This document shows, piece by piece, positions 10,606 to 30,616 of a stretch of DNA of 64,000 bases. A program made the translations under genes and the position numbers. Source of the stretch: Kiritimatiellota bacterium (GTDB taxonomy: Bacteria > Verrucomicrobiota > Lentisphaeria > Oligosphaerales > JAADHN01); contig JAADHN010000121.1 in assembly GCA_013151865.1 (NCBI GenBank), positions 1 to 64,000 on the forward strand, read 5' to 3'. Position 1 is the first letter of the stretch, and every line of letters starts with the position of its first letter. The notes under the pieces are model-generated. The model was not told the origin of the DNA. It made no database searches and saw only the letters and a program-made list of their open reading frames with translations.

Positions 10606-10608
10606 GGT

Positions 10609-11687: not shown

Positions 11688-12618
11688 ATTTGACTCTCTC
11701 TTTATTTATCGCAATGGTGATCTCCAGATGGATGCCTTTGCCCACGGTTGAGGTGATGTTCATTTCGTCGGCGCAGTTCTGTATGTTGCCCAATCCCATG
11801 CCGGCGCCAAAGCCCAAATTCCTCACCCAGTCCGGAGCGGTCGAAAAGCCCGGCTTCAATGCTGCCGCGATATCAGGGATACCAGGACCGAAATCCTCGA
11901 TTTCCACCCGGATCTGATTCGTGTCAACCTTGGCTATCAGTTCGCCTGTCCGAGCATAAATCACGGTGTTCATTTCCGCTTCGTAGGTGGCAATCGCCAC
12001 TCTGCGTACGATATCGGGATGAATGCCAAGACGCTGCAATGTCTTTTTCAACCCGCTGGAACTGCTTCCTGCCTTCTCAAAATCCTGGCCTATTATGTAG
12101 TAATGGAAGAGCAGCGCGCTCTTGTCGGCGACGATGTCTTCGAAGATATGGCTCGCCCGATAGTGGCGTATCCCTTCCTCGTGATAGTCAATCTCGAGTC
12201 TCTTGAGCAGGCACTGGATGACATCTTCGCGCGTGACCACTCCCACTACTTCGCCAGAGTCCCGGTCAAGCACCGGAAAATGGAAGAAACCGAACTTTCT
12301 GAATTCATTGATCGCATGCACCAGAGTTTCATCGGCGTACAGGGCTCGGGGCGATCGGGTCATCCTTTCCGCGACCGGGCATGCGACGGCACCGTCGGTA
12401 ATCCAGTTGACCATGTCCTCGACGCTGATGACCCCAACCAGTTTCCCGTCATCCATCACGGGGATTCCAGCAATACGGTGGGCGCGGAGGGTCGGCCTCA
12501 GTTCGCTCATGGGCGTACGGGAGCTGATCGTGACGACCCGCCGATTCATGGCGTCCCGGATTCTCAGTTCCTGCCCGAGCAGTTGCACCACGCCCGGATC
12601 ACCGTGGTTGGCATTCAT
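11665..12618 (-). CDS. CBS-pair protein with GHKL ATPase domain
   Basis: 317 residues. Residues about 15-135 are two CBS motifs (AMNRRVVTISSRTPMSELR, then RMTRSPRALYADETLVHAI) that normally bind adenosine nucleotides. Residues about 175-310 form a HATPase_c domain of the RsbW/anti-sigma type with an N box (ATYEAEMN), G1 (IEDFGPGIPD) and G2 (GAGMGLGNIQ). This is a candidate energy-charge sensor in which AMP/ATP binding by CBS controls the kinase-like domain. No histidine kinase dimerisation domain is present. It lies 12 bases after the upstream DRTGG gene. Confidence 0.82.
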   Translation of the reverse strand: MNANHGDPGVVQLLGQELRIRDAMNRRVVTISSRTPMSELRPTLRAHRIAGIPVMDDGKLVGVISVEDMVNWITDGAVACPVAERMTRSPRALYADETLVHAINEFRKFGFFHFPVLDRDSGEVVGVVTREDVIQCLLKRLEIDYHEEGIRHYRASHIFEDIVADKSALLFHYYIIGQDFEKAGSSSSGLKKTLQRLGIHPDIVRRVAIATYEAEMNTVIYARTGELIAKVDTNQIRVEIEDFGPGIPDIAAALKPGFSTAPDWVRNLGFGAGMGLGNIQNCADEMNITSTVGKGIHLEITIAINKERVKYETKKDR

Positions 12619-12630
12619 CCGAAACCTTCC

Positions 12631-12981
12631 TCAGTCATGCTCGCAGCCGCTCAAACCGAGTCGGCAGAGCTGGCCGGAAGCTTCATAGGAGGTCATCTTG
12701 GTGGTGAGAAGCACCATGCCCTTCTCTTCAGCCAATCGGATGACATCGTCCCCAGGTCTCTTTCCGCGCATGTAACAGACTGCGGCGGCGTCGACCATTT
12801 CGGCGACGCGCACCGTCTGCAGGTGAGTCAGATTGGTCAGCAGGATGGCCTTTTCCCGGGTGACGCACCTGAGCACATCGCTGAGCAGATCGCAGGCACA
12901 GGCTCTCAGCACCACGGTTTCGGGGTCGCCCGCACCAATGATCTCCGCGTCAAGGGCAGCCTTCACGTCTGCAACGGTCAT
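12631..12981 (-). CDS. DRTGG-domain protein (second of two)
   Basis: 116 residues from ATG 12981, chosen because GGAGG lies 8 bases upstream; the longer open frame has no such site. The sequence has the DRTGG fold pattern (ACACDLLSDVLRCVTREKAILLT, VAEMVDAAAVCYMRG, LTTKMTSYEASGQLCRLGL). A 262-base gap separates it from flxA, the largest gap in the operon, so a secondary promoter could lie there. It heads the five-gene regulatory cassette at the operon end. Confidence 0.75.
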   Translation of the reverse strand: MTVADVKAALDAEIIGAGDPETVVLRACACDLLSDVLRCVTREKAILLTNLTHLQTVRVAEMVDAAAVCYMRGKRPGDDVIRLAEEKGMVLLTTKMTSYEASGQLCRLGLSGCEHD

Positions 12982-13243
12982 CCGACCCACCTCCCTTCGG
13001 CCTGCGTGCGGGTATTCGTGTGCCCCGCAGGGCCGCGACGTGTCAGCAATTGGGAACATTGACCGTCACCGCCCAGCGGGAGGTTCGAGGGCGCGCTCTC
13101 CACGTTTTCGCTCCAGCCTTGTTCATTGCGTTTCGAAACAATCCGGAGCGCAGGCGAACTCACTGCCGCCGCTGAACCGGCCAGACTATTCTGAGACGGT
13201 CCGCAGTTCACTGATGCTCACCGTTAACTCGGCCGCAGCGGCA

Positions 13244-14122
13244 TTAGAATTCCGGCGGCAATTCTTCGAGCTGGCTGCAGCGAAAAACAGGCCCGTCTTT
13301 GCAGACATACAGGTTGCCGACGTTGCAACGGCCGCACTTGCCAATGCCGCATTTCATACGGTTCTCGAGCGTGGTAAAAACATTCTCTTTGGAAAGGCCG
13401 TGAGTGGCGGTGAGGACGGGCAGCGAGAACTTGATCATAATCGGTGGACCGCAGAGCACACACACGGTGTTCTCCGCGGGAATGTCGGCCTCGCCGAGCA
13501 CGGTGGGAACGAACCCGACCTGACCGGTCCAGTCCGGGGTCTCTCCGCCCGGATCGACGGTGAAGATCGTTTTGACGTCGTCACGGGCGTCCCATTGCTT
13601 GAGTTCGTCCTTGTAAACGAGGTCTGCGACTGTTCGGGCCCCGTAGCAGATGGTGATGTCGCCAAACTCCTCACGCCGGTCGAGGACGTTCCAGATGACG
13701 CTCCGCACCGGGGCCAGCCCGATGCCGCCGCCGACAAAGACCACATTCTTACCCTTCATCTCTTCAACGGGGAAGCAGTTGCCGTAGGGCCCGCGGAAGC
13801 CCACGATGTCGCCTTCATTGAGCTGATGGAATGCCTGAGTCACGCGACCGGCGCACTTGATGCTACATTCGATGTAGCCCTTGCGCGTTGGGGACGAGGC
13901 AACGCAGAAGGTGGCCTCCCCGTAGCCGAAGATCGAGTAGAGCCCGAACTGGCCGGCCTTGAATGTGAAAGCCTCGCCCTGCTCTTCATTCTCGAAGACG
14001 AGCTTAAAGGTCTTCACGTCCGGGGTCTCGGCGGTGACTTTGTCGATCCGCATACGATAGGGAACGTAATCAACGTCCATGAGGGCATCTTCCGCTGCAG
14101 TTGCCGTATTGCAGGTACACAT
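13244..14122 (-). CDS. flxA: FAD/NAD(P)-binding oxidoreductase, FlxA-like
   Basis: Up to 292 residues. The ATG at 14122 lacks a good ribosome site; ATG 14080 has GGAAG eight bases upstream and may be the true start. A ferredoxin-reductase fold is visible: GQFGLYSIFGYGEATFCVA for FAD, VFVGGGIGLAPVRSVIW for NAD(P), and a C-terminal cysteine cluster (KCGIGKCGRCNVG, then CKDGP) as in sulfhydrogenase gamma and FlxA, which hold a [2Fe-2S] centre. It would pass a hydride-derived electron pair from NAD(P)H into the Fe-S subunits FlxB and FlxC encoded just upstream. Confidence 0.85.
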   Translation of the reverse strand: MCTCNTATAAEDALMDVDYVPYRMRIDKVTAETPDVKTFKLVFENEEQGEAFTFKAGQFGLYSIFGYGEATFCVASSPTRKGYIECSIKCAGRVTQAFHQLNEGDIVGFRGPYGNCFPVEEMKGKNVVFVGGGIGLAPVRSVIWNVLDRREEFGDITICYGARTVADLVYKDELKQWDARDDVKTIFTVDPGGETPDWTGQVGFVPTVLGEADIPAENTVCVLCGPPIMIKFSLPVLTATHGLSKENVFTTLENRMKCGIGKCGRCNVGNLYVCKDGPVFRCSQLEELPPEF

Positions 14123-14262: not shown

Positions 14263-15306
14263 TCAAGAAGCCGCGGTTGTGATTTCCGCCAGGATATCGA
14301 CGAGATCCTGGCCGGCGCCGCAGACGCGGATACAGCGGCCGCAGCCGACACATGCTTTGCGGCCGAACCGGTCGATAAAATACTTGAACTTGTGCATGAT
14401 TCGGTTGCGACAGCGGCTATGCTGCTCGGGACGCGGATTGTGACCGGACGCATGCTTGGTGAATTGTGCGAAGGAGCAGCAGTCCCAGTTGCGCCGACGC
14501 TGGCCCTTGCGCCAGTCGGACTCGTCGACAATGTCGAAACAGTGACAGGTCGGGCAGAGATAGCTGCAGGCGCCGCACCCCAGGCATTTCAGCGACATGT
14601 CGGTCCAAAAGTCGTCGTCAAAATGCGTATCAAGCCACTCCTTGACCTTTTCCGTATCGAATGGACCGGCACCCACTTGGGCAGGGGGCACCAATTCTTC
14701 GGTGCCGACTGCAGGCGCGGCGCCGTCGAGACGCTTGGCGAGCGCAGCCCCACGTTCGTTCATGACTTCGAGCACTGCCCCGCCGTCCGGCATTGGGCGG
14801 ACGAACAGATCGCTGCCTTCGTTGTCGTCCGCGCGGCCGCCCATGCCGGTGCAGAAGCAGGCCTCGTCGGAGCGTGTACAGGCAACTCCAACAAACGTGG
14901 TTGCCGCCCGCCGTTCAGCATAGAGTTTGTCGCGATAGTCCCAGTTGAAGACAGTGTCGAGCACGTCCAGTGCGTTCAGGTCGCAGGGCCGCGCACCCAG
15001 CACGACGGTCGGGACGGCCTCGTTGTCGGCGGCAGTGAATTGAACGTCCTCGCCCGGCCGGCGCTCGAACTCGACGAGCGCTTCCGTGCGGGGAAACAGC
15101 ACGGCTTTGACCGGGGTGCGTGTATTGATCCACTCGGTGGCCATTTCTGCTGCTGCGCTGATTTCGCGGAACTCGGCGGTTCCTTCGGTCAGCACGGGCG
15201 CCAGGACTCTGACGTTGTCGCCATGCAAGGCGTCTACCAGCTTTTCCTGCCAGCCAGCGCCCACTACAAGTTTCTCCCGGGGATCGGTCATTGCATTCGC
15301 CTTCAT
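14263..15306 (-). CDS. flxB: iron-sulfur subunit, FlxB-like (sulfhydrogenase beta family)
   Basis: 347 residues. The N-terminal 200 residues match the sulfhydrogenase-beta/FlxB fold (VVLGARPCDLNALDVLD, GVACTRSDEACFCTGMGG). The C-terminal half has two [4Fe-4S] motifs: CLGCGACSYLCPTCHC near residue 240 and CVGCGRCIRVCGAG near residue 325, separated by HASGHNP-PEQHSRCR. It relays electrons between FlxA and the Hdr modules. It sits 20 bases after flxC. The cysteine pattern is complete. Confidence 0.85.
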   Translation of the reverse strand: MKANAMTDPREKLVVGAGWQEKLVDALHGDNVRVLAPVLTEGTAEFREISAAAEMATEWINTRTPVKAVLFPRTEALVEFERRPGEDVQFTAADNEAVPTVVLGARPCDLNALDVLDTVFNWDYRDKLYAERRAATTFVGVACTRSDEACFCTGMGGRADDNEGSDLFVRPMPDGGAVLEVMNERGAALAKRLDGAAPAVGTEELVPPAQVGAGPFDTEKVKEWLDTHFDDDFWTDMSLKCLGCGACSYLCPTCHCFDIVDESDWRKGQRRRNWDCCSFAQFTKHASGHNPRPEQHSRCRNRIMHKFKYFIDRFGRKACVGCGRCIRVCGAGQDLVDILAEITTAAS

Positions 15307-15326: not shown

Positions 15327-16178
15327 TCAGAGAATGCCGTCGTCGGTATCCAAACCGAGATCAAATGTGCTGAAGGGGCCCTTCTCGTCGGCACTCATAC
15401 CGGAGGTGAACTCGAACTTGTCTTTGACTTGCTGGATCAACTTTTGGTTGAGCAGGCCGAGCGGAATGCCTACCGGGCAGACCCGCTCACACTCGCCGCA
15501 ACCGATGCAGCGTCCGGTCAAGTGGAAGGCGCGCATCACGTTCCACATCACATTCCCACGCAGATGGGAACTGGTTTCAACCCACTGCGGGATGTTTTTT
15601 TCGACCACACACTGCTTGCAGTAGCATAAGGGGCACACTTGACGGCACGCATAACAGCGTATGCAGTCTTTGAGCTTTTCCTTCCAAAAGTTCCACCGCG
15701 CGTCAATGTCCTTGGTTTCGAACGCCTCGACCGCTGCGAATTCGCCCTCTTCCGGTTCGATATCGACCGGGTCCCCCAACACGGTGTCGCAGTCCGGCGG
15801 ATTGTGTACCGTGCAAAAACGACACTTCTGCATTTTCGGATCGCCGACACCTTCGCAAGTGATCCCGATGATGTGCAGATCTTCGCGCGCAATTTGGTTT
15901 TCGCGTATCAGCACATTGATGGCGCGTCGATCGCAGCCTTTGACGACAATGGCACACCTGCCGAGCTTCCGCACTTCCGGCTTGTTTAGGTAGACGGCCA
16001 GGTTTCGGTAGCATTCGCCGTCGAGGGCAAGCTGCGACACCTGCTGCGGAGTACGCGCAAACACGGCGGTCATGTCGCCCCTGCTGCCGGTATGTCCATA
16101 GCCGATGACAACCCCGACGGCTTTCCGTTTGAGCAGGTCTTCGGCAGTCTCGCGCAGCAGTTGGGTCAGATCCTGCAT
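15327..16178 (-). CDS. flxC: iron-sulfur subunit, FlxC-like
   Basis: 283 residues. An N-terminal FrhB-like region (VGVVIGYG near residue 22; GRCAIVVKGCDRRAINVLI; IGITCEGVGDP) is followed by two [4Fe-4S] motifs, CIRCYACRQVCPLCYCKQC near residue 172 and CIGCGECERVCPVGIP near residue 232. In Desulfovibrio FlxABCD this subunit connects the NAD(H) module with HdrABC. The stop is 20 bases before flxB and the start 6 bases after mvhD/flxD, so the four flx genes form a tight block. Confidence 0.83.
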   Translation of the reverse strand: MQDLTQLLRETAEDLLKRKAVGVVIGYGHTGSRGDMTAVFARTPQQVSQLALDGECYRNLAVYLNKPEVRKLGRCAIVVKGCDRRAINVLIRENQIAREDLHIIGITCEGVGDPKMQKCRFCTVHNPPDCDTVLGDPVDIEPEEGEFAAVEAFETKDIDARWNFWKEKLKDCIRCYACRQVCPLCYCKQCVVEKNIPQWVETSSHLRGNVMWNVMRAFHLTGRCIGCGECERVCPVGIPLGLLNQKLIQQVKDKFEFTSGMSADEKGPFSTFDLGLDTDDGIL

Positions 16179-16184
16179 GGGGGA

Positions 16185-16658
16185 TTAATTCCTGTTGTCC
16201 CGTATCCGTTCAAAGTACTCGAAGGGGCCAAGCTCGGTGGCCAGCGCCGTGATGTCGGCAACGACCTGCGACCACTTTCCGCCTTGTGCAGCCGACACCC
16301 AGGACATCTGGAATCGCCGGGGGTCGATGCCCATGAATTCAAGGAGCGAGCGAAAGGTGGGAAGCTTGCGCCGGGCGTGGTAGTTGCCGCTCGTGTAATG
16401 GCAGTCGCCCGGATGACAGCCGCTCACCAGCACCATGTCGGCGCCGCGTTCGAATGCTTTCAAAATGAAGAGCGGGTCGACTCTGCCGGTACAGGGGAGT
16501 TTCACGATTCTGATATTGGGAGGGTAGCCGAGGCGACTCGTCCCCGCCAAATCGGCGCCGGCGTAAGAGCACCAGTTGCACAGGAAGGCCACGATCCTGG
16601 GCTCGAAGGTGGTCTGTTCGTCGTCGTCGGCAGTTGAGGTTGTCTGAATCGCTTCCAT
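16185..16658 (-). CDS. flxD: MvhD/FlxD hydrogenase iron-sulfur subunit family
   Basis: 157 residues. It contains the MvhD signature: FLCNWCSYAGADLAG, VKLPCTGRVDP and VSGCHPGDCHYTSGNYHA. MvhD carries a [2Fe-2S] centre and passes electrons into HdrA. Here the neighbours are FlxC downstream and the NuoG/HdrA C-half fusion upstream (128-base gap), which is the expected interface. Residues 1-20 are acidic and probably disordered. Confidence 0.88.
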   Translation of the reverse strand: MEAIQTTSTADDDEQTTFEPRIVAFLCNWCSYAGADLAGTSRLGYPPNIRIVKLPCTGRVDPLFILKAFERGADMVLVSGCHPGDCHYTSGNYHARRKLPTFRSLLEFMGIDPRRFQMSWVSAAQGGKWSQVVADITALATELGPFEYFERIRDNRN

Positions 16659-16786: not shown

Positions 16787-18604
16787 TCAGGGCACCAGTG
16801 CGTCTATTTCCGCATACAACTCGGCGTCCGTGAAGCCTTCCACCTCAATGCTGTTCGAACGACAGGTCACCGCACAGGCGCCGCACCCCTGACAAAGCCC
16901 CGGGTTGACCTCGGCCACGATCTTGACGAGGTTCCCTTTGCGGTCACGTATTTCTTTCTCACCGATGGCGCCGTAGGCGCAGACCGGCTCACAGTTGAAA
17001 CAGGCATTGCAGGTGTTCTCATCGACACAAGCAACGATGGGTTCGCGCTCGTATTCGTCCCGGACGACCAGTCCCAACGCCTTGGCGGCTGCGCCGCTGG
17101 CCTGGGCGACCGTTTCGGGGATATCCCGAGGGGCTTGGCAAGCGCCCGCGAGGAAGATCCCGGCGGTATTGGTCTCAACCGGACGCAACTTCGGGTGCGC
17201 TTCGTTGAAGAACTCATGCTCGTCGTATCCGATGCGGAGTTTCTGGGCGAGGTCGACGGCCCCGCTGCTCGGCACGACGGCCGCCGCCAGTACGACCAGG
17301 TCCGCGTCGATTTCGACCTGATTGCCGGAGAGTGTGTCGGCGCCCCAGACAACCATCTTCCCATTGCGCGGAAAAATCTTGGCCACGCGCCCGCGGATGT
17401 AAGTGGCCGTCTTTTCTTTCGCGACACGCCGGACGAACTGCTCGTAGTTCTTGCCCGGGGCGCGAACGTCCATGTAGAAGACAAAGGCTTGGCCGTCATG
17501 CACCTTGTGTTCATAGAGCATGGTGTGCTTGGCAGTGTACATGCAGCAGATGTTGGAGCAGTACGGCTTGTGCTTGACCTCTTCGCGGGAGCCCACGCAT
17601 TTGACGAATACGCAGACCATCGGTTTTTCGCCGCCGACGATCTTGCCGTCGTCGTCATACTCGAACGTGGACGGCCGATAAACATTGCCGCCGGTCGGAC
17701 CGCTGGCGCTGACCATGCGTTCAAACTCCAGACTGGTTACCACGTCCGGATACCTGCCGTAACCGTACTCTTCGTAAGCGGCGGGATTGTAGAGCTGGTA
17801 GCCGGTTGTGACCACGATGGCGCCGACCTTCTCTTCCGTGAATTCGTCTTCAGCCTCGTAGTCGATGGCGCCCGCCGGGCAGATCTGCGCACAGGCGCCG
17901 CAACCGCCGGTCCTGAAGTGGATGCAATTCTCGCGGTCGATGACCGGCTTGTTGGGCACAGCCTGCGGGAAAGGCACGTAAATCGATCGCCGCGAGTCGA
18001 AGCCGCAATTGAACTCGTTGGGAATGCGTTCCAGCAGCTTATCCCTGAATTCGGCCGGATCGATGCAACCGGTCGGGCAGACTACGGCACACGCTCCGCA
18101 GCCGATGCAGACGTCGCTGAGTTCCTTGTAAGGCGTGACCACTTCGCGGGTCTGGCCGCGGCCCGAAAAGCAGACGGCGCCGACGCCGATGACCTGGTTG
18201 CAGACGCGCACACAGAGCCCGCACATGATGCATTTTTGATTTCGGTTTTCGGTTTTGAACCGTGGTGTGTCAACCCCCAGTTCCCGGGCCATTTCCTGAA
18301 TCCTCTCGCTCTCGGGGCACCGGGCCAGGAGCAACTCGAGGGTCATCTTGCGCGAACGTTTGATCCGCTCGCTTTCGGTCTGCACAACGAGGCCTTCCTC
18401 CGCCGGGTACGCACAGGAGGCGATCAGCCGTGTCCTCCCTCTGGACGTCGCTTCCACGACGCATATGCGGCAAGCGCCTGCGCTGGGGACCCCGCGGTGG
18501 TGGCAAAGGGTTGGGATTTCCAGGCCGCAAGCTTTGGCCGCGTCCAGCACGGTTGCGCCGTCCGCAACCTCAATCTCCTGGCGGTTGACAGTGAGTGTCG
18601 GCAT
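16787..18604 (-). CDS. NuoG-type N-domain fused to the C-terminal half of HdrA
   Basis: 605 residues. Residues 1-75 are a plant-type [2Fe-2S] domain (CHHRGVPSAGACRICVV) like NuoG and HydA N-termini. Residues about 115-210 hold two [4Fe-4S] motifs (CIMCGLCVRVC, CIGCGACAVVCPTGC). From about residue 220 the sequence is HdrA: PNEFNCGFDSRRSIYVPFPQ, CGACAQICPAGAIDY, VKCVGSRE, YCSNICCMYTAKH, AGIFLAGACQAPRDIPETVA, then a C-terminal double [4Fe-4S] domain (CNACFNCEPVC, CQGCGACAVTC). The N-terminal half of HdrA, with its GxGxxG FAD motif, is encoded separately at 20829-22184. No H-cluster or molybdopterin domain follows the NuoG part, so this is not a hydrogenase or formate dehydrogenase. Confidence 0.87.
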   Translation of the reverse strand: MPTLTVNRQEIEVADGATVLDAAKACGLEIPTLCHHRGVPSAGACRICVVEATSRGRTRLIASCAYPAEEGLVVQTESERIKRSRKMTLELLLARCPESERIQEMARELGVDTPRFKTENRNQKCIMCGLCVRVCNQVIGVGAVCFSGRGQTREVVTPYKELSDVCIGCGACAVVCPTGCIDPAEFRDKLLERIPNEFNCGFDSRRSIYVPFPQAVPNKPVIDRENCIHFRTGGCGACAQICPAGAIDYEAEDEFTEEKVGAIVVTTGYQLYNPAAYEEYGYGRYPDVVTSLEFERMVSASGPTGGNVYRPSTFEYDDDGKIVGGEKPMVCVFVKCVGSREEVKHKPYCSNICCMYTAKHTMLYEHKVHDGQAFVFYMDVRAPGKNYEQFVRRVAKEKTATYIRGRVAKIFPRNGKMVVWGADTLSGNQVEIDADLVVLAAAVVPSSGAVDLAQKLRIGYDEHEFFNEAHPKLRPVETNTAGIFLAGACQAPRDIPETVAQASGAAAKALGLVVRDEYEREPIVACVDENTCNACFNCEPVCAYGAIGEKEIRDRKGNLVKIVAEVNPGLCQGCGACAVTCRSNSIEVEGFTDAELYAEIDALVP

Positions 18605-18629
18605 TGTCGGTATCCCAAAACAGGTTCAT

Positions 18630-20453
18630 CTATTCCACGAGCACGGCATCGAAAGAGCAGGATTCGTAGCACGCGCCGCACTTGATGCACTTGCTCCGGT
18701 CGAGCGTGTGCGGCTGTTTTTTGGCGCCGGTGATGGCGCCTACCGGGCATACTCTGGCGCATTTGGTGCAGCCCTTGCAGGCGTCCGCGCTGATGCTGTA
18801 TTGGATCAGTGCCTTGCAGACGCCGGCTGGGCATTTGCCGTCCGCAATGTGGGCCGTATACTCGTCACGGAAGTATTTCAAGGTTGACAGGACCGGGTTC
18901 GGCGCGGTGCCGCCGAGGGCGCACAGCGATGAGTCTTTCACGTATTCCGCCAATTCGATCAGCATTTCGATATCGTCGTCTCGGCCCTGGCCCGCGCAAA
19001 TGCGCTCAAGAATGCCGTGCATCTGGGCGACACCTTCCCGGCACGGCGTGCATTTGCCGCAGGATTCATCCACGAGGAATTCCAGGAAGTACCGTGCGAC
19101 GTCGACCATGCACGTTCTTTCGTCCATGACGATCAGCCCGCCGGACCCCATGATGGAGCCGACTTCGCCGAGTCTTTCATAGTCGATGGTCAGGTCCAGG
19201 AGCGATGCCGGGATGCAGCCGCCGGAAGGTCCTCCGGTCTGAACCGCTTTGAACTTTCGGCCGTTGGGGATGCCGCCGCCGATGCCGAATACGATTTCGC
19301 GCAGAGTAGTGCCCATCGGCACTTCCACCAGCCCGGTATTGTTTACGTTGCCGACCACGGAGAAAACCTTGGTGCCCTTCGATGTGTCCGTGCCGATCGA
19401 CGAGAACCATTCGGCGCCGCGCCTCATGATTACCGGAACGTTGGCCCAGGTTTCAACATTGTTGATGTTGGTGGGCATGTTCCACACGCCTGATTGCGCG
19501 GGAAATGGCGGTCGCACGCGGGGTTCCGGCATGCGTCCTTCAAGGGAGGAAATCAGCGAGGTTTCCTCACCGCAGACAAAGGCGCCCGCACCCCGGAAAA
19601 CGCTGATGTCGAAATTGAGACCGCAACCGAAGATGTCCTCGCCGAGAAGTCCGTATTCGCGCGCCTGATCAATCGCAATATGGAGTCGTTCCATGGCCAG
19701 CGGGTACTCCTCGCGGATGTAGACGTACCCATGAGATGCGCCGATCGCGTAAGCGCCGATCGCCATGCCTTCGAGTACCGAGAACGGGTCCGACTCGATG
19801 ATGCTGCGGTCCATAAACGCGCCGGGGTCGCCCTCATCGGCGTTGCAGATGATGCACTTGTCATCTCCGGGCGCCTTTCGCGTGAACCCCCATTTCACCC
19901 CGGTAGGGAAGCCCGCGCCGCCGCGGCCGCGCAGGCCGGAGCGAGTCATTTCGTCGATCACCTCTTCCGGAGTCATGGACGCGAGGACTTTGGCCAAGGC
20001 TTGGTAGCCCTCGCGCCCGATGTATTCGTCAATCTTTTCAGGATCGATGAGGCCCCGATTGCGCAGCACGATCAGGCGCTGCTTGTTGAAAAAGTCGATG
20101 TCGCTCAGTTTGGGAATCGGCGGCTCGCCTGCCGACGGTACATACATGAACTTCTCGACCGGGCGCCCCTTGATCAGATGTTCTTCGACGAGTAGCGGCA
20201 CGTCCTCCGGCTTGAGTTTTTGGTAAAAGATCCCGTCAGGCTGGAAGATCATGATGGGGCCCTGCGCGCAGAAGCCCTGGCATCCCGTGGCGACGATCTT
20301 GACCTCATCCTTGAGGCCGCGCTTGTCGATTTCCTCAAGCAGCGCCTCGCGGACCTTGAGGGAGCGGCCGGACACACATCCAGTGCCCGCACAGACAAGC
20401 AACTGCGCGCGTCCGACGTGGTGTGCTGTGGGAGGCGAAGTTTGTTCGGCCAT
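18630..20453 (-). CDS. NADH-binding subunit, NuoF/HndC-like
   Basis: 607 residues. An N-terminal thioredoxin-like [2Fe-2S] domain (CAGTGCVSGR, VATGCQGFCAQGP) is followed by the NuoF core with the FMN/NADH motifs GRGGAGFPTGVKWGF and CNADEGDPGAFMDRS, the N3-type [4Fe-4S] motif ESCGKCTPCREG, and a C-terminal pair of ferredoxin motifs (CKGCTKCARVCPVG, CIKCGACYESC). Length and domain order match HndC/HydB of bifurcating complexes rather than respiratory complex I NuoF, which lacks the end domains. It oxidises NADH or reduces NAD. It abuts the HndB-like gene with a one-base overlap. Confidence 0.9.
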   Translation of the reverse strand: MAEQTSPPTAHHVGRAQLLVCAGTGCVSGRSLKVREALLEEIDKRGLKDEVKIVATGCQGFCAQGPIMIFQPDGIFYQKLKPEDVPLLVEEHLIKGRPVEKFMYVPSAGEPPIPKLSDIDFFNKQRLIVLRNRGLIDPEKIDEYIGREGYQALAKVLASMTPEEVIDEMTRSGLRGRGGAGFPTGVKWGFTRKAPGDDKCIICNADEGDPGAFMDRSIIESDPFSVLEGMAIGAYAIGASHGYVYIREEYPLAMERLHIAIDQAREYGLLGEDIFGCGLNFDISVFRGAGAFVCGEETSLISSLEGRMPEPRVRPPFPAQSGVWNMPTNINNVETWANVPVIMRRGAEWFSSIGTDTSKGTKVFSVVGNVNNTGLVEVPMGTTLREIVFGIGGGIPNGRKFKAVQTGGPSGGCIPASLLDLTIDYERLGEVGSIMGSGGLIVMDERTCMVDVARYFLEFLVDESCGKCTPCREGVAQMHGILERICAGQGRDDDIEMLIELAEYVKDSSLCALGGTAPNPVLSTLKYFRDEYTAHIADGKCPAGVCKALIQYSISADACKGCTKCARVCPVGAITGAKKQPHTLDRSKCIKCGACYESCSFDAVLVE

Positions 20454-20836
20454 CAGGCTACCCTTTCACTGCCCACACCCAAGGCGTAATCCGCAACGAT
20501 GTTGCCGCCCAAGACGTGTTCGGTGAAGATCACACGCGTCTTATTTTCATCAAGATTGACATACTTCACGGGCGCCTCGCCCTGGATCTCGACCGTCATC
20601 ATCGGCTCGCGACTGCAGAGCCCGGCGCAGCCCGACGTCGTCAGAGTGACGTCGTCGACCCCCTGCTCCTCCATCGCGCTCATAAGTGCAGTCATGATCT
20701 TCCTGGCGCCGGCGGCAATGCCGCATGTGCCCATGTGGACGGTCACCCGGGCGCGGGCCGTCCCGTCCCGCAACTTCGCCTGACGTCGCATCCGCATCGC
20801 GATCGCTTCGAGATCTTCCGGTCTGATCTTAGGCAT
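20453..20836 (-). CDS. thioredoxin-like [2Fe-2S] protein, HndB-like
   Basis: 127 residues. Four cysteines sit in the thioredoxin-like ferredoxin pattern: one in MGTCGIAAGA, two in TTSGCAGLCSREP, but the usual second N-terminal cysteine is replaced (only one Cys in the first loop). This spacing matches HndB proteins of NADP-reducing hydrogenases. It overlaps the HdrA/NuoE gene by 8 bases and nuoF by 1 base, so its translation is coupled to both. Role: small electron carrier or structural subunit of the NuoEF module. Confidence 0.8.
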   Translation of the reverse strand: MPKIRPEDLEAIAMRMRRQAKLRDGTARARVTVHMGTCGIAAGARKIMTALMSAMEEQGVDDVTLTTSGCAGLCSREPMMTVEIQGEAPVKYVNLDENKTRVIFTEHVLGGNIVADYALGVGSERVA

Positions 20837-22184
20837 CGACTGTCTCTCCCGCCATGACGTCCGACGGGGCGGTCTGATCCGTCCCCCCCGGCGTGACTGC
20901 TGCCGGAGCCTGTTTCCGGTAACGTTCGAGAATCTTTGGGAGCTTGGCCTGGGTTACGGCGCCATATAAATCGTCGTTGATGGTCATGACCGGCGCCAGC
21001 CCGCAGCAACCGAGGCAGCGCACCGGTTCGAGGGTGAAGTCCCCGTCTTCCGTGGTCTCCCCGGCTTTCACGTCGAGCAACCGTTCCAACGCCTGCAGAA
21101 TGAGCCCCGCGCCCTTCACGTGACAGGCCGTTCCCATGCAGACGCGGACGAGGTTCTTCCCGCGCGGCGTCAAACTGAACGAGTTGTAGAAACGGGCCAG
21201 CCCATAGGTCCGACTCAACGGGACATTGAGCCGTTCGCTTGTATAGCGCAACGCATCTGGCGGCAGGTAGTTGTATTTCTTCTGGATATCCTGAAGCACG
21301 CTGATCAACATGCCGTGCTCGCCGGTTGCCGGTTCGAGAATGACGTCCAGGGTGTTTTTCATCTCCTGGTCCATTGATTCCGCGACACTCACCCTCTCGG
21401 GCACGGAAATCTTGTTGCGAGACATGCAGTTGTTGAAGCAGTCGCCGCACCCGGTGCACTTGTCCACATCAACGCTGCGCGCTTTCTTTCTGACCTTGAC
21501 GTTGAAATTGCCGATGTAGCCGTCGACCGACTCGACTTCCGCATACGTATAAAGCTTGATCTTGTCGCTCTGCATGATGTCGACCATGCGCGGCGTGAGG
21601 ATACACTGCGAGCAATCGAGCGTGGGGAATGTCTCGTCAAGTTGTGCCATGTGTCCGCCGATGGACGGTTTGCGTTCGACCAGCACCACTTCGTAGCCCG
21701 CAGCCGCCACGTCGAGCGCGACCTGGATTCCGGCGATACCCGCGCCGACGACCATGACCCGCTGGGTGACCGGAACGACGATGGGGGCGAGTGGGCGGTT
21801 GCGGCGCAACTTCTCGACCATCAGTCGGACCAAATCCTTTGCCTTGGCCGTGGCCTTCTCCCGATCCGTGTGCACCCAGGAGCAGTGCTCGCGAATGTTG
21901 GCCATTTCAAGCATATACGGGTTCAAGCCAACGGTGGCCGCGGTTTTCCGGAAAGTGGCTTCGTGCATGCGCGGCGAACAGGATGCGACCAACACACCGG
22001 TCAGGCCGTACTCTCGAATCGCATCGGTGATCATCCGTTGCCCCGGCTCCGAACAGGTGTAGCGGTAGTCGCGGGCCACCACAACGCTTGGAAGCGTTCT
22101 TGCGTAGGCCGCAACCGCAGGAGAATCAACCGTTTCCGCGATGTTGCTGCCGCACCAGCAGACAAATACGCCTATTCGCGCCAT
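20829..22184 (-). CDS. N-terminal half of HdrA fused to NuoE
   Basis: 451 residues. Residues 1-285 match the HdrA N-half: GVFVCWCGSNI, VASCSPRMHE, the FAD motif VVGAGIAGIQVAL, GGHMAQLDETFPTLDCSQC, TYAEVESVDGYIGNF and one ferredoxin motif CTGCGDCFNNC. The HdrA similarity then stops. Residues about 295-430 are a NuoE/HndA domain with the [2Fe-2S] pattern CMGTACHVKGA and CLGCCGLAPV. The last 20 residues are low-complexity. The HdrA continuation (PNEFN, QAVP and so on) is found in the gene at 16787-18604. The split falls at a natural linker, so both halves probably assemble into one HdrA unit. Confidence 0.87.
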   Translation of the reverse strand: MARIGVFVCWCGSNIAETVDSPAVAAYARTLPSVVVARDYRYTCSEPGQRMITDAIREYGLTGVLVASCSPRMHEATFRKTAATVGLNPYMLEMANIREHCSWVHTDREKATAKAKDLVRLMVEKLRRNRPLAPIVVPVTQRVMVVGAGIAGIQVALDVAAAGYEVVLVERKPSIGGHMAQLDETFPTLDCSQCILTPRMVDIMQSDKIKLYTYAEVESVDGYIGNFNVKVRKKARSVDVDKCTGCGDCFNNCMSRNKISVPERVSVAESMDQEMKNTLDVILEPATGEHGMLISVLQDIQKKYNYLPPDALRYTSERLNVPLSRTYGLARFYNSFSLTPRGKNLVRVCMGTACHVKGAGLILQALERLLDVKAGETTEDGDFTLEPVRCLGCCGLAPVMTINDDLYGAVTQAKLPKILERYRKQAPAAVTPGGTDQTAPSDVMAGETVDA

Positions 22185-22235: not shown

Positions 22236-23126
22236 TCATAGATAAACACCGGTCTCGATCAGGCCGCGGTCGGCCAGTACCGGTAGGGGATCGACGATTC
22301 CCTTATTCAAACACTGCGCGTCGGCTGCAAGGTCAAAGGCTACTGCCAGCAACTGAGTGAAGTAAAGCACGGGGATGCCCAACTGCCGACCCAACTTGCT
22401 CTCAGAATCGGATTGATACATGTCCAGATTGGCTTGGCACAATGGGCAGGCCACGGCCAAAATGTCTGCGCCGCAGTCTTTGGCCATTTCCACAACGCTG
22501 CCGCTGAGGCGGACCACGGTCTCGCCCCGAGCCAACGTGAGCGCCGCACCGCAGCATTCGGTCTTGAACGGCCAGTCCACCGGTTCGGCGCCCGCAGCCC
22601 GCATCAGGTCATCCATGAGGGTCGGGTATTCCAGGCTGTCAATGCGCAATGGTTCGGGCATGCGCGTCAGCAGGCACCCATAATAGCAGGCGACCTTGAG
22701 TCCCGTAAGCGGCTTCCGTACCCGGCGTTGGATAGCCTGCAGGCCGATCCGTCGGACCAGAACCTCTGCGAGATGCAGGATCGCGACGCCGCCGTGATAG
22801 TCTTCCTCGACAATCTCATTTATCTGCGCGAGCAGGGCCGGGTCATTCTGCATGTCGTGGTTGCCCTGTTTCAGGCGGCTGAAGCAGGCGGCACAGCAGG
22901 TGAGTATTGTTTCCAACCCCTGCTTTTCAGCGGCCGCGCAGGCGATGGCCGAAAGCGCCACGGGCAACAGGTGGCTGGTGGCATGGGCCGGCGTCGCTCC
23001 ACAGCAGACCCAATCGTCCACTTCTTCCAGTTCAACACCCAGTGCCGCCAACACTGCCTCGGCGGAATGCGCGTATTCCGCGCCGCTGCCTTCCAGTGAA
23101 CATCCGGGGTAGTAGCCGAATTTCAT
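22236..23126 (-). CDS. hdrB: heterodisulfide reductase subunit B-like
   Basis: 296 residues with two CCG domains: WVCCGATPAH and TCCAACFSRLK in the first half, CYYGCLLTR, TECCGAALT and ACPLCQANLD in the second. In methanogen HdrB these cysteines hold two non-cubane [4Fe-4S] clusters that reduce a disulfide. The bacterial substrate is unknown; a cytoplasmic disulfide or a downstream redox protein is possible. It overlaps hdrC by four bases and lies 51 bases upstream of the HdrA/NuoE gene. Confidence 0.9.
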   Translation of the reverse strand: MKFGYYPGCSLEGSGAEYAHSAEAVLAALGVELEEVDDWVCCGATPAHATSHLLPVALSAIACAAAEKQGLETILTCCAACFSRLKQGNHDMQNDPALLAQINEIVEEDYHGGVAILHLAEVLVRRIGLQAIQRRVRKPLTGLKVACYYGCLLTRMPEPLRIDSLEYPTLMDDLMRAAGAEPVDWPFKTECCGAALTLARGETVVRLSGSVVEMAKDCGADILAVACPLCQANLDMYQSDSESKLGRQLGIPVLYFTQLLAVAFDLAADAQCLNKGIVDPLPVLADRGLIETGVYL

Positions 23127-23692
23127 GAGCCTTCAATCTCCTCGATGCGCCGGAAAACACGTTTGAGTCGGTCCGTGCGCTTGATCTTGTGCGGAATGAT
23201 GCCCACCTTGCCTTTGAGGAGAAACCAGGGCGCCTTGACGACATTGGTCATTATCCGGCCCGAATTGATGTTGTAGCTTCCCATGAGCGCGACCTCGCTG
23301 AGACGTCCGAATTCACGTACGCTGTCAAGGAAAGCTTGGAAGAAGGTGAAGACGCGTGCCCCGTCGGGCGGCATGGGAACGCCGTCGTGTGTGGCCATCT
23401 GGCGCAATGTGTCCATCATTCGGGCCAAGTCGATGCCGATCGGGCAGCGGCAGGTGCACGCCGAACACCCGGCGCAGCACCAGATCATTTCGTTTTTCAG
23501 CGCGTCTTCTTTCAGGCCCAATTGAACCATGCGGATGACACGATTCGGGGCAATCGCCATATCCTCGAAGACCGGGCAGCCGGCCGAGCATTTGCCGCAC
23601 TGGTAGCAGGCACTGATCTCCTGTTCGCAATGTTTCTCAACGGCGGCCAGGAATTCGCTGTGAAACGCTTTGCCCGCAAGCTGATGTTTCAT
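23123..23692 (-). CDS. hdrC: heterodisulfide reductase subunit C-like
   Basis: 189 residues from ATG 23692. A GTG at 23713 overlaps the stop of the upstream cytochrome gene and would add seven residues. Two [4Fe-4S] motifs are present: CYQCGKCSAGCPV near residue 30 and CCAGCSACTCRCPIGI near residue 75. The C-terminal 100 residues are basic and amphipathic. HdrC links HdrA to HdrB. Unlike membrane HdrE systems, the gene next to it encodes a polytopic protein with a fused 12-heme domain. Confidence 0.88.
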   Translation of the reverse strand: MKHQLAGKAFHSEFLAAVEKHCEQEISACYQCGKCSAGCPVFEDMAIAPNRVIRMVQLGLKEDALKNEMIWCCAGCSACTCRCPIGIDLARMMDTLRQMATHDGVPMPPDGARVFTFFQAFLDSVREFGRLSEVALMGSYNINSGRIMTNVVKAPWFLLKGKVGIIPHKIKRTDRLKRVFRRIEEIEGS

Positions 23693-23712
23693 GGTTCGAC
23701 TCTCGATTCCCA

Positions 23713-26700
23713 CTACTTTCTGCTCGTGCCGTCGAGGATCGTTTGACAGGCTTTGAGGCGTTCCTCGGCCCGATCCAGGATCGTGGTGATCAGCATGTTG
23801 TTGTGGGCGCCGTAACTGCCGTCGGTGACCACGTATGAGATCATGGTTCCCGCGTCGGCAAGCATCCGCTTGATCGCAGCGGCGTCATTTCCCGTTGCGG
23901 CAACCTTGGCGGCTCGCCCCCGGACAGCTTCGAGTGCGGTCTGCAGTTTCGCGACCCGTGCCTTGGTTTCTCCCTGCCATTCGCCGAGCATTTCTCCGTA
24001 AGCTTCGTCGCCGTGACAGGCGGTGCACTCCGCCGCGCTGGCCGTGCGCGTGCGGCGTTCGGTGTGCCCCACCGTGAGAACCGTGTCCCCCGCGTGGCAG
24101 CCGTCGCAGGAGACGCCGGCTTCGTACATGACGTCCGGTGAGGTTTCGAGTTCGGGCAGCACCGTCCCCGCGTAGATACGTGCCTGCAGCGAGTGCTGCT
24201 CACTGCCGTGGCAGTTCGCGCAGTTGCGCGTGGTCAATGACTGTTCTTCCATGGACTGCGTGCCGTGTTTGATCTCGTCGTGGCACTCCAAACAGTCAAA
24301 GTGCCCTTTGGACACGTGGATCAGGTGGAACTTTCGCTGGTCGGTGATTTTCTCCCTACGCTGAAAGTGACAATTTCGGCAGCGCGTCGGAGAAACGTGC
24401 CCGTCCCCTTCGGTGACATTGCTGTGGCAATCCCAACAGCGGACGTCCGTGTTGTCATCGATGAAATCCTTGTGGTTGAACTCCTGCCCGTTGTGGACGA
24501 CCGCCTTGTCGGGCAAGATGTGACAAAGCAGGCAATCGCCGATGGCAGTCGGCTTCTTGCCGCGCCCGTAGAAATGACACGTGATGCAGGTGGTCTCGGT
24601 CACGCCGATGTGCTGGCCTTCGACCGTCTGGCCGTGACAACTGACGCAGTTGAGTTCTTTCCCGCGTGGACGCGCGCTGAGATGCTTTTCGTGACGGAAC
24701 CGGATTTTGCCCCGGAAGACCAGCGTCTCCTTGTCGTGGTCCATGCCGGCATGGCAGGCCGGGCGCATGCACGCCGCGTTGTTGATTCTCGCGTGCGGCA
24801 TACCGGAAACTGAGTGGGTGAGGAACTTTGTGAGTTGCACCATGGCCGCCAGCTTCCCCTTTACAACGGCCTCGACCCCGGGATCGTAGTGACATTCCAC
24901 GCAGGCCACATCTTTGTGTGACGAATGCTGCCATGAGTTGTAAAAGGTGTCCATATTGTGACAGATCATGCAAAACTTTGGATACGCCGTTATCTCAAGT
25001 GAATACGCGGCAACCGCCAGCGCCGCAATCGCCAGAACCGGAATGGCTGCCAGCGCGGCGCCTTGGCGGGTAAAGATGGAAAACAGCGGGAGCAGGTTCA
25101 GCCTGTCCACACCGCGGCGGAGATAGGGCAGTGCGAAGAAAACGCCGAGAACGCCTATGCCGGCGACCAGATAGAAGAGAAGGTCCTGGGTGAAATGCGA
25201 CGTGCTCAGTCTGATCCAGTCATAGGCCATCAGCGAGAGGGACAACGTCAGAAGATAGGCGAAAATGGACCGATGCAGCAGCAACAGTAGCGCCGCGAAT
25301 GCCGCGCCCACCACGAGAAACACCCCCCACGACCCGGACGCCGCCGGACTTACGACACTCAGCCCGCCTGCTACGAGTGCCACCATGGTTGCGCACACAA
25401 AAAGTGCCGTTTCCCAAGACAGCGCCTGGCGTCGCCGGGCTGCGTATCCCGCGCCGACCCACAGCAGGGAGAGCACGGCGAACGGCATCAGTTGTTCGCG
25501 ATACACCGTGTTTCGAGATACCGCGAGCGCGAGCAGGATGGCAATACTCGCCCAGAGCAGCGCCCCGACTCTGAAGTCCGTCTCGTTCCGGCGCGGGAAA
25601 GCGACGTGGATAGCGGCGTAAGCGACTACCACCCACGGCACAAGGGCGGACGTTCCGGTCCAAGTCAGCACTAATGCGGCAACGGCCATGACGATGCTGC
25701 TGGCGTGACCGGCGACCAGCGCGCTTTCGGCAAACAATGGATTCTTCCGCGATGCCGTAGTCAGGCAGAAGAACATGAAGACCGTGGCGGCCCCGGCGGT
25801 CAACCGCGCGACCGGTTCCGACAGCCCTCCAAAAATGACCAGCAGCAAACCCAGCGCCAGCAGCGCATTCCCGGCTCGCGCGTACCAGGCGCGTCCGCCG
25901 ATTGTCCAGCCGGCCAGATAGGCCAGCGCGAGTGTCAGTATGCATGCTCCGGACATCACAGAGGGCATACCCCTGAGCGGGCCCAGGCAGAGGGTCGCCA
26001 ACGTGCCCGCGACGGCGACGATCCCGACAAGCCGGTCGAGCGCATCGGGCTTTTTCGCCCCATTGCGGCAGCCTGCCATGAGAATGGCAGCAAAAGCGAT
26101 GGCGGTCGCGGAGTAGAGTGCCGGGATTGCCCCGGCTCGAGCGCCAAGCACGGAACTGGCGACACTGATGATCAGCCATGCTGTGCCGATAGCGGTGCGC
26201 ACCACCGTTCGGCGGTCTCTCGAATCGGCCCACATATAGCACGCGCCGGCCACGACGGCGCCCACAGTGCAGACAGCCCACCCCACGTCCCTGCCGACGA
26301 ACAGTTGCGTGACTATCACAAAAGCGCCCGCGCAGACGGGACCGAGGGCGGCCAGGACCCATCGGTTCTTGAATGCTTTGGCCATCACCAGCAAACCGAT
26401 GATGACCGGACCGATCGTGACGAGCGCCAACGACGGTTCGAGGTAGAGCAAGGCCACGTACCAGCCGAAAAAGGCCGGGGCCATTGCAGCGCGTGCAAGA
26501 TCATTCTCGAATGCACTCCCGGGCGCCGCCGCGAGGACGTTGCGAGCGTAAGCCAATCCCGTCAACAGGAGGACGGGGATGAGCAGGAGCCAGCCGGTCG
26601 CCCCTCCTCCGCCGAATTGGATCCCAACGCCCGTGAACGCTGCCGCCAGGAACGTACTCGCCATCAGGGTGTACACTGCACGTCCTGCACCCTCTTCATG

Positions 26701-27708
26701 GCGTCGCCACCAGACGATCCACCAGTACATGCACGCCATGACCAATGCTGCGAGAGTAATGCTCGGTGTCGCCGGTGCGATGAAAACTGCGGGGACCACC
26801 GGCAAACTCAGCCCCAATGCGCCAAGGAAAAAGCACTTGGCCGCGGCACGTTCGGCCGTGGTTGCGCGAGCGACGGTGGGAACGGCAACAGTCAGCCACA
26901 TGTAGCCTGTCCAGAGGACGAGAGCCGCCAGCGACAAGCACAGCACCAGCGATGTCCAGTGCGAGAGGGAAAGAAGCAGGGCCACGACTGTCGCCATGCA
27001 TGCGCAAAGATATGCGTGCCGGGACCAACGGTAGCCGCGCCGCGGATGGTTTTCAGTCCCCACCTGCAGGATAGCCACTGCCGCCAATAGTGTCGGCTCC
27101 CAACTGGCTTGGAACGACAGCAGTGCGGTGCCCAGCATGCCCCCCGCTCCCGTCAGAAAACCGGAGAACAAATAAACGTAGCCGATGGGCGCGCCTTTGA
27201 GGGAATGCCCCAGGTAGATCACTGCATAGCCGAGAAACGCGAGTCCCGCGATGCGAGAGCCCAGTTGCGTGCCGAGATCCAGGAGTGGTGTCTGGACCAA
27301 AGCCCATACCGAAAACACAGCCACGGTGATGTTCATGGCCCGAAAAACCGTGAGCGGATATGCTCCGTGATGAGCGGGTAAACGCGTCTCAAGCTGTCGA
27401 CCCACCAGCCAGAGGGCCGCAACCAGTGGAACCGAGAGGGCCGGAAAGAGCGCGGCGGGTGCGCCAAGTGCGTAACACAACACGAAATACGAAACCGCCC
27501 CGAGTAGCATCGCGGCATAGAGGAAGTGGGCTTTTCGGGCCAGAATGGCCGCGGCAAGGAACGGCAGCGTAAACAGAAAAATAACGCCGGAACTCAGGGC
27601 CGGAGCATTGGCTATGAAGTCCTTTGCCGCGACGAGCAGCAACAGAGCGATAAGCAGACTGAGGTGCTGGAGCACCTCAGCGGGCAGTCGTGCAAGCTTC
27701 TCTCTCAC
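23713..27708 (-). CDS. giant polytopic membrane protein fused to a 12-heme cytochrome
   Basis: 1331 residues from GTG 27708, which has a GAGGGAG ribosome site eight bases upstream; the open frame reaches GTG 27783, but the added 25 residues are hydrophilic. Residues about 15-895 are an almost continuous run of more than twenty hydrophobic helices with no recognised transporter or quinone-site motif. A last helix near residue 890 leads to hemes: CMICH, CVECH, a C-x4-CH site (CMRPACH), CVSCH, CITCH, CLLCH, CWDCH, CRNCH, CLECH, CANCH, CDGCH and CTACH, in residues about 913-1230. The tail is alpha-helical. It is the first gene of the Hdr operon. The function is unknown; an electron exit from Hdr to the periplasm, or a membrane ion-coupling unit, would fit. 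Confidence 0.85.
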   Translation of the reverse strand: MREKLARLPAEVLQHLSLLIALLLLVAAKDFIANAPALSSGVIFLFTLPFLAAAILARKAHFLYAAMLLGAVSYFVLCYALGAPAALFPALSVPLVAALWLVGRQLETRLPAHHGAYPLTVFRAMNITVAVFSVWALVQTPLLDLGTQLGSRIAGLAFLGYAVIYLGHSLKGAPIGYVYLFSGFLTGAGGMLGTALLSFQASWEPTLLAAVAILQVGTENHPRRGYRWSRHAYLCACMATVVALLLSLSHWTSLVLCLSLAALVLWTGYMWLTVAVPTVARATTAERAAAKCFFLGALGLSLPVVPAVFIAPATPSITLAALVMACMYWWIVWWRRHEEGAGRAVYTLMASTFLAAAFTGVGIQFGGGGATGWLLLIPVLLLTGLAYARNVLAAAPGSAFENDLARAAMAPAFFGWYVALLYLEPSLALVTIGPVIIGLLVMAKAFKNRWVLAALGPVCAGAFVIVTQLFVGRDVGWAVCTVGAVVAGACYMWADSRDRRTVVRTAIGTAWLIISVASSVLGARAGAIPALYSATAIAFAAILMAGCRNGAKKPDALDRLVGIVAVAGTLATLCLGPLRGMPSVMSGACILTLALAYLAGWTIGGRAWYARAGNALLALGLLLVIFGGLSEPVARLTAGAATVFMFFCLTTASRKNPLFAESALVAGHASSIVMAVAALVLTWTGTSALVPWVVVAYAAIHVAFPRRNETDFRVGALLWASIAILLALAVSRNTVYREQLMPFAVLSLLWVGAGYAARRRQALSWETALFVCATMVALVAGGLSVVSPAASGSWGVFLVVGAAFAALLLLLHRSIFAYLLTLSLSLMAYDWIRLSTSHFTQDLLFYLVAGIGVLGVFFALPYLRRGVDRLNLLPLFSIFTRQGAALAAIPVLAIAALAVAAYSLEITAYPKFCMICHNMDTFYNSWQHSSHKDVACVECHYDPGVEAVVKGKLAAMVQLTKFLTHSVSGMPHARINNAACMRPACHAGMDHDKETLVFRGKIRFRHEKHLSARPRGKELNCVSCHGQTVEGQHIGVTETTCITCHFYGRGKKPTAIGDCLLCHILPDKAVVHNGQEFNHKDFIDDNTDVRCWDCHSNVTEGDGHVSPTRCRNCHFQRREKITDQRKFHLIHVSKGHFDCLECHDEIKHGTQSMEEQSLTTRNCANCHGSEQHSLQARIYAGTVLPELETSPDVMYEAGVSCDGCHAGDTVLTVGHTERRTRTASAAECTACHGDEAYGEMLGEWQGETKARVAKLQTALEAVRGRAAKVAATGNDAAAIKRMLADAGTMISYVVTDGSYGAHNNMLITTILDRAEERLKACQTILDGTSRK

Positions 27709-27849
27709 CGAGGGTTCTCCCTCTCGCCCGTGATGCCGCCCCGAACCGCATCCCAAGGGGGAATCAGTCGAGATGCGTACCACATTGTGGTAGTTTTAAG
27801 GCCTTCCAATTGATGAGGTTCAGTGTAAAAAACCCTCACACCGAGAGAG

Positions 27850-30600: not shown

Positions 30601-30616
30601 GATGGGGCTCCTTGTT

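Follow-up and report, generated by a model that had tools for sequence, protein, structure and literature searches.

A NuoEFG cassette within hdrA of a Kiritimatiellota bacterium: two fusion proteins that probably tie HdrA to a Bfu-type module

Background

Four families of bifurcating flavoenzymes are known, HdrA and Bfu among them. Here we analyse a locus in which the two are joined by gene fusion, found in a 64,000-nucleotide stretch (hereafter the window) of contig JAADHN010000121.1 of a Kiritimatiellota bacterium (assembly GCA_013151865.1, positions 1 to 64,000). The hdrA gene is represented there by two fusion genes, hdrA-N/nuoE and nuoG/hdrA-C.

Several described systems resemble this locus in part. 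FlxABCD-HdrABC (Flox/Hdr; Hdr-IFO-like), the NADH dehydrogenase/heterodisulfide reductase of anaerobic bacteria, is encoded by the same gene set: hdrC, hdrB, hdrA and mvhD/flxD, followed by three Fe-S/flavin genes (PMC4287179). In the window, however, a Bfu cassette breaks up hdrA, which yields two fusion proteins. The Bfu family, as surveyed in PMC9304861, includes HydABC/HndABCD, NiFe-Bfu, Nfn-Bfu/StnABC and Wor-Bfu. The window shares with it NuoE and NuoF bearing the B1-B5 and C1 ligands as well as a short NuoG, and its third-substrate domain lies on BfuA, which is closest to the 'Type 1' logic of the survey. Unlike these members, BfuA carries one HdrA half in the window and BfuC the other; an HdrA-fused member is not mentioned in the text searched of PMC9304861.

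StnABC (Sporomusa-type Nfn), termed an amalgamation of two bifurcating machineries, also exhibits a NuoG domain joined to the flavin domain of another bifurcating family (PMC10482914). Its partner is GltD/NfnB-like and on one chain, whereas the partner of NuoG in the window is the C-part of HdrA, and HdrA extends over two chains. The Bam class II benzoyl-CoA reductase complex (BamDEF plus BamGHI) likewise combines HdrA and BfuABC modules, but PMC9304861 describes them as separate subunits, together with a tungsten benzoyl-CoA reductase. No Pfam domain of a BamB-type tungsten enzyme was found among the operon proteins scanned, the search being limited to the operon. In the HdrA of ANME-1, an NfnB-like domain interrupts the inserted ferredoxin domain (PMC9012536), the same HdrA domain as in the window; the ANME-1 case is a domain insertion within a single chain, whereas in the window whole genes are inserted and HdrA is made as two proteins.

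Results

Both open reading frames (ORFs) to which the initial annotation had assigned the two HdrA halves are located on the minus strand. Residues 3-255 of the first protein (22184-20829) match positions 1-255 of the HdrA2 model (E-value = 3 × 10-107), comprising the N-terminal domain, the flavin adenine dinucleotide (FAD) Rossmann part and motif 1 of the inserted ferredoxin. Its C-terminal side matches 2Fe-2S_thioredx/NuoE at residues 283-423 (E-value = 10-47), within a NuoE/BfuC region of about residues 270-425. The second protein (18604-16787) starts with Fer2_4 and NuoG/HoxU/HydA-type Fe-S domains ([2Fe-2S] and 2[4Fe-4S], residues 1-190), and its residues 193-603 match HdrA2 positions 256-640 (E-value = 2 × 10-121), that is, motif 2 of the inserted ferredoxin, the remaining FAD domain and the C-terminal ferredoxin. 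The model is tiled by the two fusions without gap or overlap at 255/256, and positions 641-774 correspond to MvhD. An alignment with the PDB HdrA structure 5odc_A gives the same split (residues 5-257 versus 245-649), the overlap of about 12 residues being the last NuoG ferredoxin motif, which occupies the place of the homologous HdrA motif 1. These results bear out the proposal that the two halves are complementary, and both alignments put the break at the proposed linker past the first ferredoxin motif: on 5odc_A the second half restarts at PNEF, the first having stopped just past the fourth cysteine of motif 1. HdrA is not a single polypeptide here, hndB and nuoF lying between the two ORFs, and a complete HdrA (N-terminal, FAD, inserted and C-terminal ferredoxin domains) is obtained only when both proteins are combined.

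There is no other, unsplit HdrA of this type elsewhere in the genome of the window. The only further large HdrA encoded there is of the tandem form, with a GltD-like interruption: a 1829-aa frame (contig C34:60500-80193, loci L140/L141) in which the tandem HdrA units are split by a GltD-like (pyridine nucleotide-disulphide reductase) stretch of about 500 aa.

A genome scan provided 80 related loci for comparison. The split form (hdrA-N/nuoE, nuoF, nuoG/hdrA-C) occurs on eight other contigs, and a further genome (G457) exhibits an hdrA-N/nuoE fusion at a contig end (L204). More than 60 loci have an intact hdrA in the order hdrC-hdrB-hdrA-mvhD-flxCBA, and nearly all non-split loci either show this order or are cut by a contig end. 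The split HdrA sequences of the window and the eight other contigs, hereafter type I, form one clade (support of 99 in the Shimodaira-Hasegawa-like approximate likelihood ratio test). The arrangement is rare: it was found in 4 of 294 genomes sampled from Planctomycetota (the phylum of genome G292), in none of 193 genomes of Omnitrophota (that of G298) and, among 41 relatives in the order of the window, only in the window's own genome. The initial annotation had raised the possibility that a full HdrA gene is the normal form and the split one an assembly rearrangement. The first part is correct, as the more than 60 intact loci indicate; the second is contradicted by the eight other contigs and their single clade. 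Full HdrA is the common form, and the split one is a genuine variant that has been inherited.

Since the unsplit relatives carry the same operon with an intact hdrA, the reciprocal exchange, or domain swap, suggested at first is not supported. The HdrA halves are separated by the fused NuoE, a free-standing HndB-like protein and NuoF, so that the order is collinear. Judging from gene order, the split form is a nuoE-(hndB)-nuoF-nuoG(N) cassette inserted within hdrA with both ends fused in frame, and a single insertion would therefore explain both fusions. At locus L209 (contig C132 of genome G290), nuoE, which has a response-regulator-like N-terminus, stands unfused beside Hdr genes, together with nuoF and a short nuoG; this is a possible unfused precursor of the arrangement.

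The inserted module exhibits sequence features of the bifurcating Bfu family. NuoF matches the PDB chains 7q4v_B (E-value = 4 × 10-250) and 7t2r_B (E-value = 6 × 10-249); it matches Acetobacterium woodii HydB and the NiFe-HydABCSL B subunit across 590 residues. All five ligands of the B2 [2Fe-2S] cluster are present (aligned to C438, C476, H525, C531 and C536 of 7t2r_B), including the diagnostic histidine that, according to PMC9304861, virtually all bifurcating BfuB possess and non-bifurcating homologues lack. The His-Cys-Cys part of B2 is found in 17 of 17 fused loci. NuoF and NuoE of the window further contain the motifs of B5 (N-terminal [2Fe-2S]), B3/B4 (C-terminal 2[4Fe-4S]) and C1 (BfuC [2Fe-2S]); in some fused loci the NuoF N-terminus is divergent and unmatched by the B5 motif used. 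In the NuoG part, the [2Fe-2S] region is preserved along with two [4Fe-4S] motifs; a His/Cys [4Fe-4S] domain like that in the NuoG of complex I gave no Pfam match. By its ligand set, the NuoE-NuoF-NuoG module is thus predicted to belong to the bifurcating Bfu (HydABC-type) family.

The cut through the inserted ferredoxin domain spares its cysteines. The four of motif 1 are present in 18 of 18 fused loci and the four of motif 2 in 17 of 17, as are eight NuoG cysteines (17/17). The equivalent of Cys197, the second-subunit ligand of the N-terminal cluster, is retained along with the eight cysteines of the inserted ferredoxin. A classical 2[4Fe-4S] fold has each of its clusters bound by three cysteines of one motif and a single cysteine of the other. 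Since the cysteines of both motifs are all kept on separate proteins, we infer by analogy with this fold that both [4Fe-4S] clusters of the inserted ferredoxin are ligated by the two chains together. Single-chain models from AlphaFold2 gave a mean predicted local distance difference test (pLDDT) score of 82.6 for HdrA-N/NuoE, which resembles the HdrA of 5odh/5odc and NfnC/HydC chains, and of 84.2 for NuoG/HdrA-C, which resembles 5odc_A and 9mqx_A/8a6t_A. Confidence is low where the missing half would sit (residues 178-192 and 255-259 of the N-part, 196-203 and 208-216 of the C-part). In loci L205 and L130, the HdrA frame is interrupted at residue 193-194 approximately, the Cys197 position. One in-frame TGA was found in L205 (genome G338), as for a selenocysteine at the inter-subunit cluster ligand, and other HdrA matches likewise have one TGA.

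The same block was found in the first unit of tandem HdrA proteins (type II: L132-L136, L205, L206 and L229, some in genomes with type I and some in others). Type II loci exhibit the order HdrA(143-253)-NuoE, NuoF, NuoG-HdrA-C (to about 310)-second HdrA, then MvhD where the contig continues; hndB is a free gene in some of them, as in the window. A tree of the HdrA part that the loci share places type I sequences among single HdrA and type II sequences among tandem HdrA, the split L229 pairing with the unsplit tandem L223 from the order of the window (support 99). A single origin of all fused loci is not supported: a joint split-HdrA clade costs 347 log-likelihood units, the approximately unbiased (AU) test value of 0.0504 appearing unstable at such a difference. 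Type II as a single clade (AU p = 0.002) and all fused NuoF as a single clade (p = 0.0003) were rejected. The trees favour separate events at one HdrA site that appears to have been used repeatedly, with exchange between copies; gene exchange between type I and type II could contribute. Longer GltD-like inserts lie near the cut point in L060 (about 40 residues beyond that of the window), L143 and the tandem HdrA of the window's own genome.

The window operon itself is a mosaic. For its HdrA parts and NuoG the closest match is the type I locus L051; for NuoF, hndB and the 3' portion of nuoE it is the type II locus L135 (NuoF 81% identical; clade support 97). Monophyly of type I NuoF was rejected (p = 0.0008). 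By window-wise identity along the genes, one breakpoint lies close to residue 320 of HdrA-N/NuoE and the other where nuoF meets nuoG. The cassette has thus been exchanged between operons, the fused flanks staying in place. The initial annotation was incomplete in that the Bfu type of the module, the use of the same site in tandem HdrA and this mosaic went unmentioned.

The operon is a row of genes running from a multiheme cytochrome through hdrC, hdrB, hdrA-N/nuoE, hndB, nuoF, nuoG/hdrA-C and mvhD to three Flx-type genes, and ending at 13244 (Table 1). From the cytochrome to nuoG/hdrA-C, adjacent genes overlap or are spaced by at most 51 nt; the biggest later gaps are 128 and 140 nt. HdrB carries two C-x(30-40)-CC-x(30-42)-CxxC motifs, and the FlxC-like gene occupies the same position in nearly all related loci.

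Table 1. Genes of the split-hdrA operon in the window
Feature	Position	Strand	Evidence
Membrane protein, about 22 hydrophobic segments, C-terminal domain with 11 CXXCH heme motifs; first gene of the row	23713..27783	-	Pfam Cytochrome_C7/CIII; heme and segment counts
HdrC	23123..23713	-	TIGR03290 (under equivalog cut-off), Fer4_8/Fer4_17
HdrB, two full CCG motifs (non-cubane cluster sites)	22236..23126	-	TIGR03288 (E-value = 10-45, under cut-off); motif count
HdrA N-half + NuoE/BfuC fusion, 451 aa	20829..22184	-	Profile matches, PDB alignment, AlphaFold2 model
HndB-like [2Fe-2S] thioredoxin-fold protein, free gene	20453..20836	-	Profile matches
NuoF/BfuB: N-terminal [2Fe-2S], FMN/NADH domain, B1, B2, C-terminal 2[4Fe-4S]	18630..20453	-	Profile and PDB matches
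NuoG/BfuA N-terminal module + HdrA C-part fusion, 605 aa	16787..18604	-	Profile matches, PDB alignment, AlphaFold2 model
MvhD/FlxD	16185..16658	-	PF02662 (E-value = 4 × 10-51); HdrA2 model 641-774
FlxC-like, two [4Fe-4S] motifs	15327..16178	-	Domain match and motif count
FlxB-like Fe-S protein (sulfhydrogenase beta/AsrA-like)	14263..15306	-	NF040833, TIGR02910 (under cut-off)
FlxA-like FAD/NAD(P) protein (sulfhydrogenase gamma/AsrB-like)	13244..14122	-	PRK08345 (E-value = 2 × 10-78), NAD_binding_1, DHODB_Fe-S_bind

The stop codon of the cytochrome gene overlaps the hdrC start by 1 nt. In five split loci, hdrC is likewise preceded by a homologue of the cytochrome (40-49%); weaker homologues lie near L059-L061. 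This location directly 5' of hdrC, together with the homologues, suggests a link between the Hdr complex and a multiheme cytochrome. Other multiheme cytochrome c genes surround the operon at 14-2152 (+), 2961-6131 (+) and 29509-30810 (-), with Cytochrome_C7, Paired_CXXCH and MtrC/MtrF-like domains; the ORFs at 8425-10029 and 31454-33235 also appear rich in CXXCH. Small regulatory-type genes are located 3' of the operon at 10129-13059 (-): HATPase, PHP, DRTGG, CBS plus HATPase, and a fifth, DRTGG-like one without a Pfam match. They were rejected as a conserved part of the operon, as none was found near the related split and unsplit loci examined.

Discussion

These observations are probably best explained by a cassette inserted in hdrA and a complex in which HdrA and NuoEFG are wired through a re-formed ferredoxin domain. 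A BfuCB(A) cassette (nuoE, optional hndB, nuoF and the N-part of nuoG) would have entered hdrA between the two halves of the inserted ferredoxin domain, its ends becoming fused in frame. The two HdrA parts would come together around a single FAD, and both chains would contribute to a re-formed inserted ferredoxin domain. This domain is the proposed low-potential exit of HdrA to ferredoxin (PMC9012536). The cassette is built into it, and the simplest reading is that the low-potential branch is hard-wired to NuoG: the exit would sit directly on the NuoG Fe-S chain, and HdrA would exchange electrons with the NAD/ferredoxin-bifurcating NuoEF core, not solely with free ferredoxin. MvhD and the Flx proteins would feed the HdrA FAD, and HdrBC would accept the high-potential electrons. 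In the predicted complex, FlxA and NuoF would each provide an NAD(P)(H) site and NuoF a ferredoxin site as well, HdrB would be the high-potential outlet, and there would be two flavin bifurcation centres, the HdrA FAD and the NuoF flavin mononucleotide (FMN); the direction of electron flow may be reversible. The physical tie between an NADH module and the Hdr core, proposed in the initial annotation, is supported: NuoE and NuoG are both fused to HdrA parts. Bam, which combines BfuABC with HdrA (PMC9304861), and StnC, in which NuoG is joined to an NfnB-like domain (PMC10482914), are published precedents for a tie between such modules. More tentatively, and with somewhat less than even confidence, we suggest a double bifurcating enzyme, in which the HdrA FAD and the Bfu FMN-FeS core are permanently wired through the two-chain ferredoxin domain, the joint having arisen more than once because this domain is a natural socket of HdrA.

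Several points weigh against this proposal. The NfnB-like flavin of StnC has lost bifurcation (PMC10482914), and by analogy the HdrA FAD may have lost it too. The ligation across chains is drawn by analogy with the classical 2[4Fe-4S] fold, and at the junction the C-half is poorly modelled (pLDDT below 50 at residues 196-203 and 208-216). The complex is predicted from sequences and single-chain folds, and all examples are environmental assemblies.

It is unlikely, though worth serious consideration, that NuoEFG is a plain electron input, NADH being oxidised (with reduced ferredoxin) at NuoF and mid-potential electrons passing via NuoG to an HdrA FAD that serves as a non-bifurcating relay to HdrBC. 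The Stn flavin just mentioned is a precedent, and some Hdr complexes of non-methanogens probably do not bifurcate according to a review (PMC5861303). However, all eight cysteines of the inserted ferredoxin and Cys197 are retained, as are the C-terminal ferredoxin domain, MvhD and the Flx genes, and therefore the usual FAD input and low-potential exit look intact. We regard as rather improbable a Bam-like direction, in which NuoEF would confurcate electrons of NADH and reduced ferredoxin to NuoG, for HdrA to re-bifurcate them into very low- and high-potential branches. Such a double scheme has been proposed for Bam, which has the same module set (PMC9304861), but a scan of the operon proteins revealed no gene for an acceptor of very low potential, whether of the benzoyl-CoA reductase type or another; moreover NuoG is attached at the normal low-potential exit of HdrA, so that an extra exit would be needed. 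There is very little to be said for neutral operon scrambling, with a common operon, fused ends and independent enzymes. HdrA and Bfu modules are each found alone in many genomes, and free-standing short-NuoG modules adjoin Hdr genes (L209), but a single FAD domain and a single ferredoxin domain are divided by the cut, so that both fusions must assemble for HdrA to work; all ligands are kept in 17-18 fused loci, and a second HdrA class uses the same site. An artefact of assembly or binning, for which the environmental origin of every example might speak, is practically negligible in view of the identical junctions across independent projects and contigs, in one clade of substantial divergence.

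The modules of the inserted-cassette complex, and the idea of joining them, are already known; the split and its site are new as far as we have seen. No description of an HdrA-NuoE or NuoG-HdrA fusion was found in the open-access full texts searched, but subscription papers, notably the HdrA-module review of Appel et al. 2021, were outside the scope, so that priority is not assured.

The finding bears on how HdrA and Bfu meet in complexes such as Bam, for which PMC9304861 states that the bifurcation reaction could not be shown. Here the gene fusion would fix where contact is made, with NuoG and NuoE facing HdrA's inserted ferredoxin domain, and it predicts an interface open to structural test. 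A whole-gene cassette within another gene, with both ends fused, would also be an unusual route to a protein complex.

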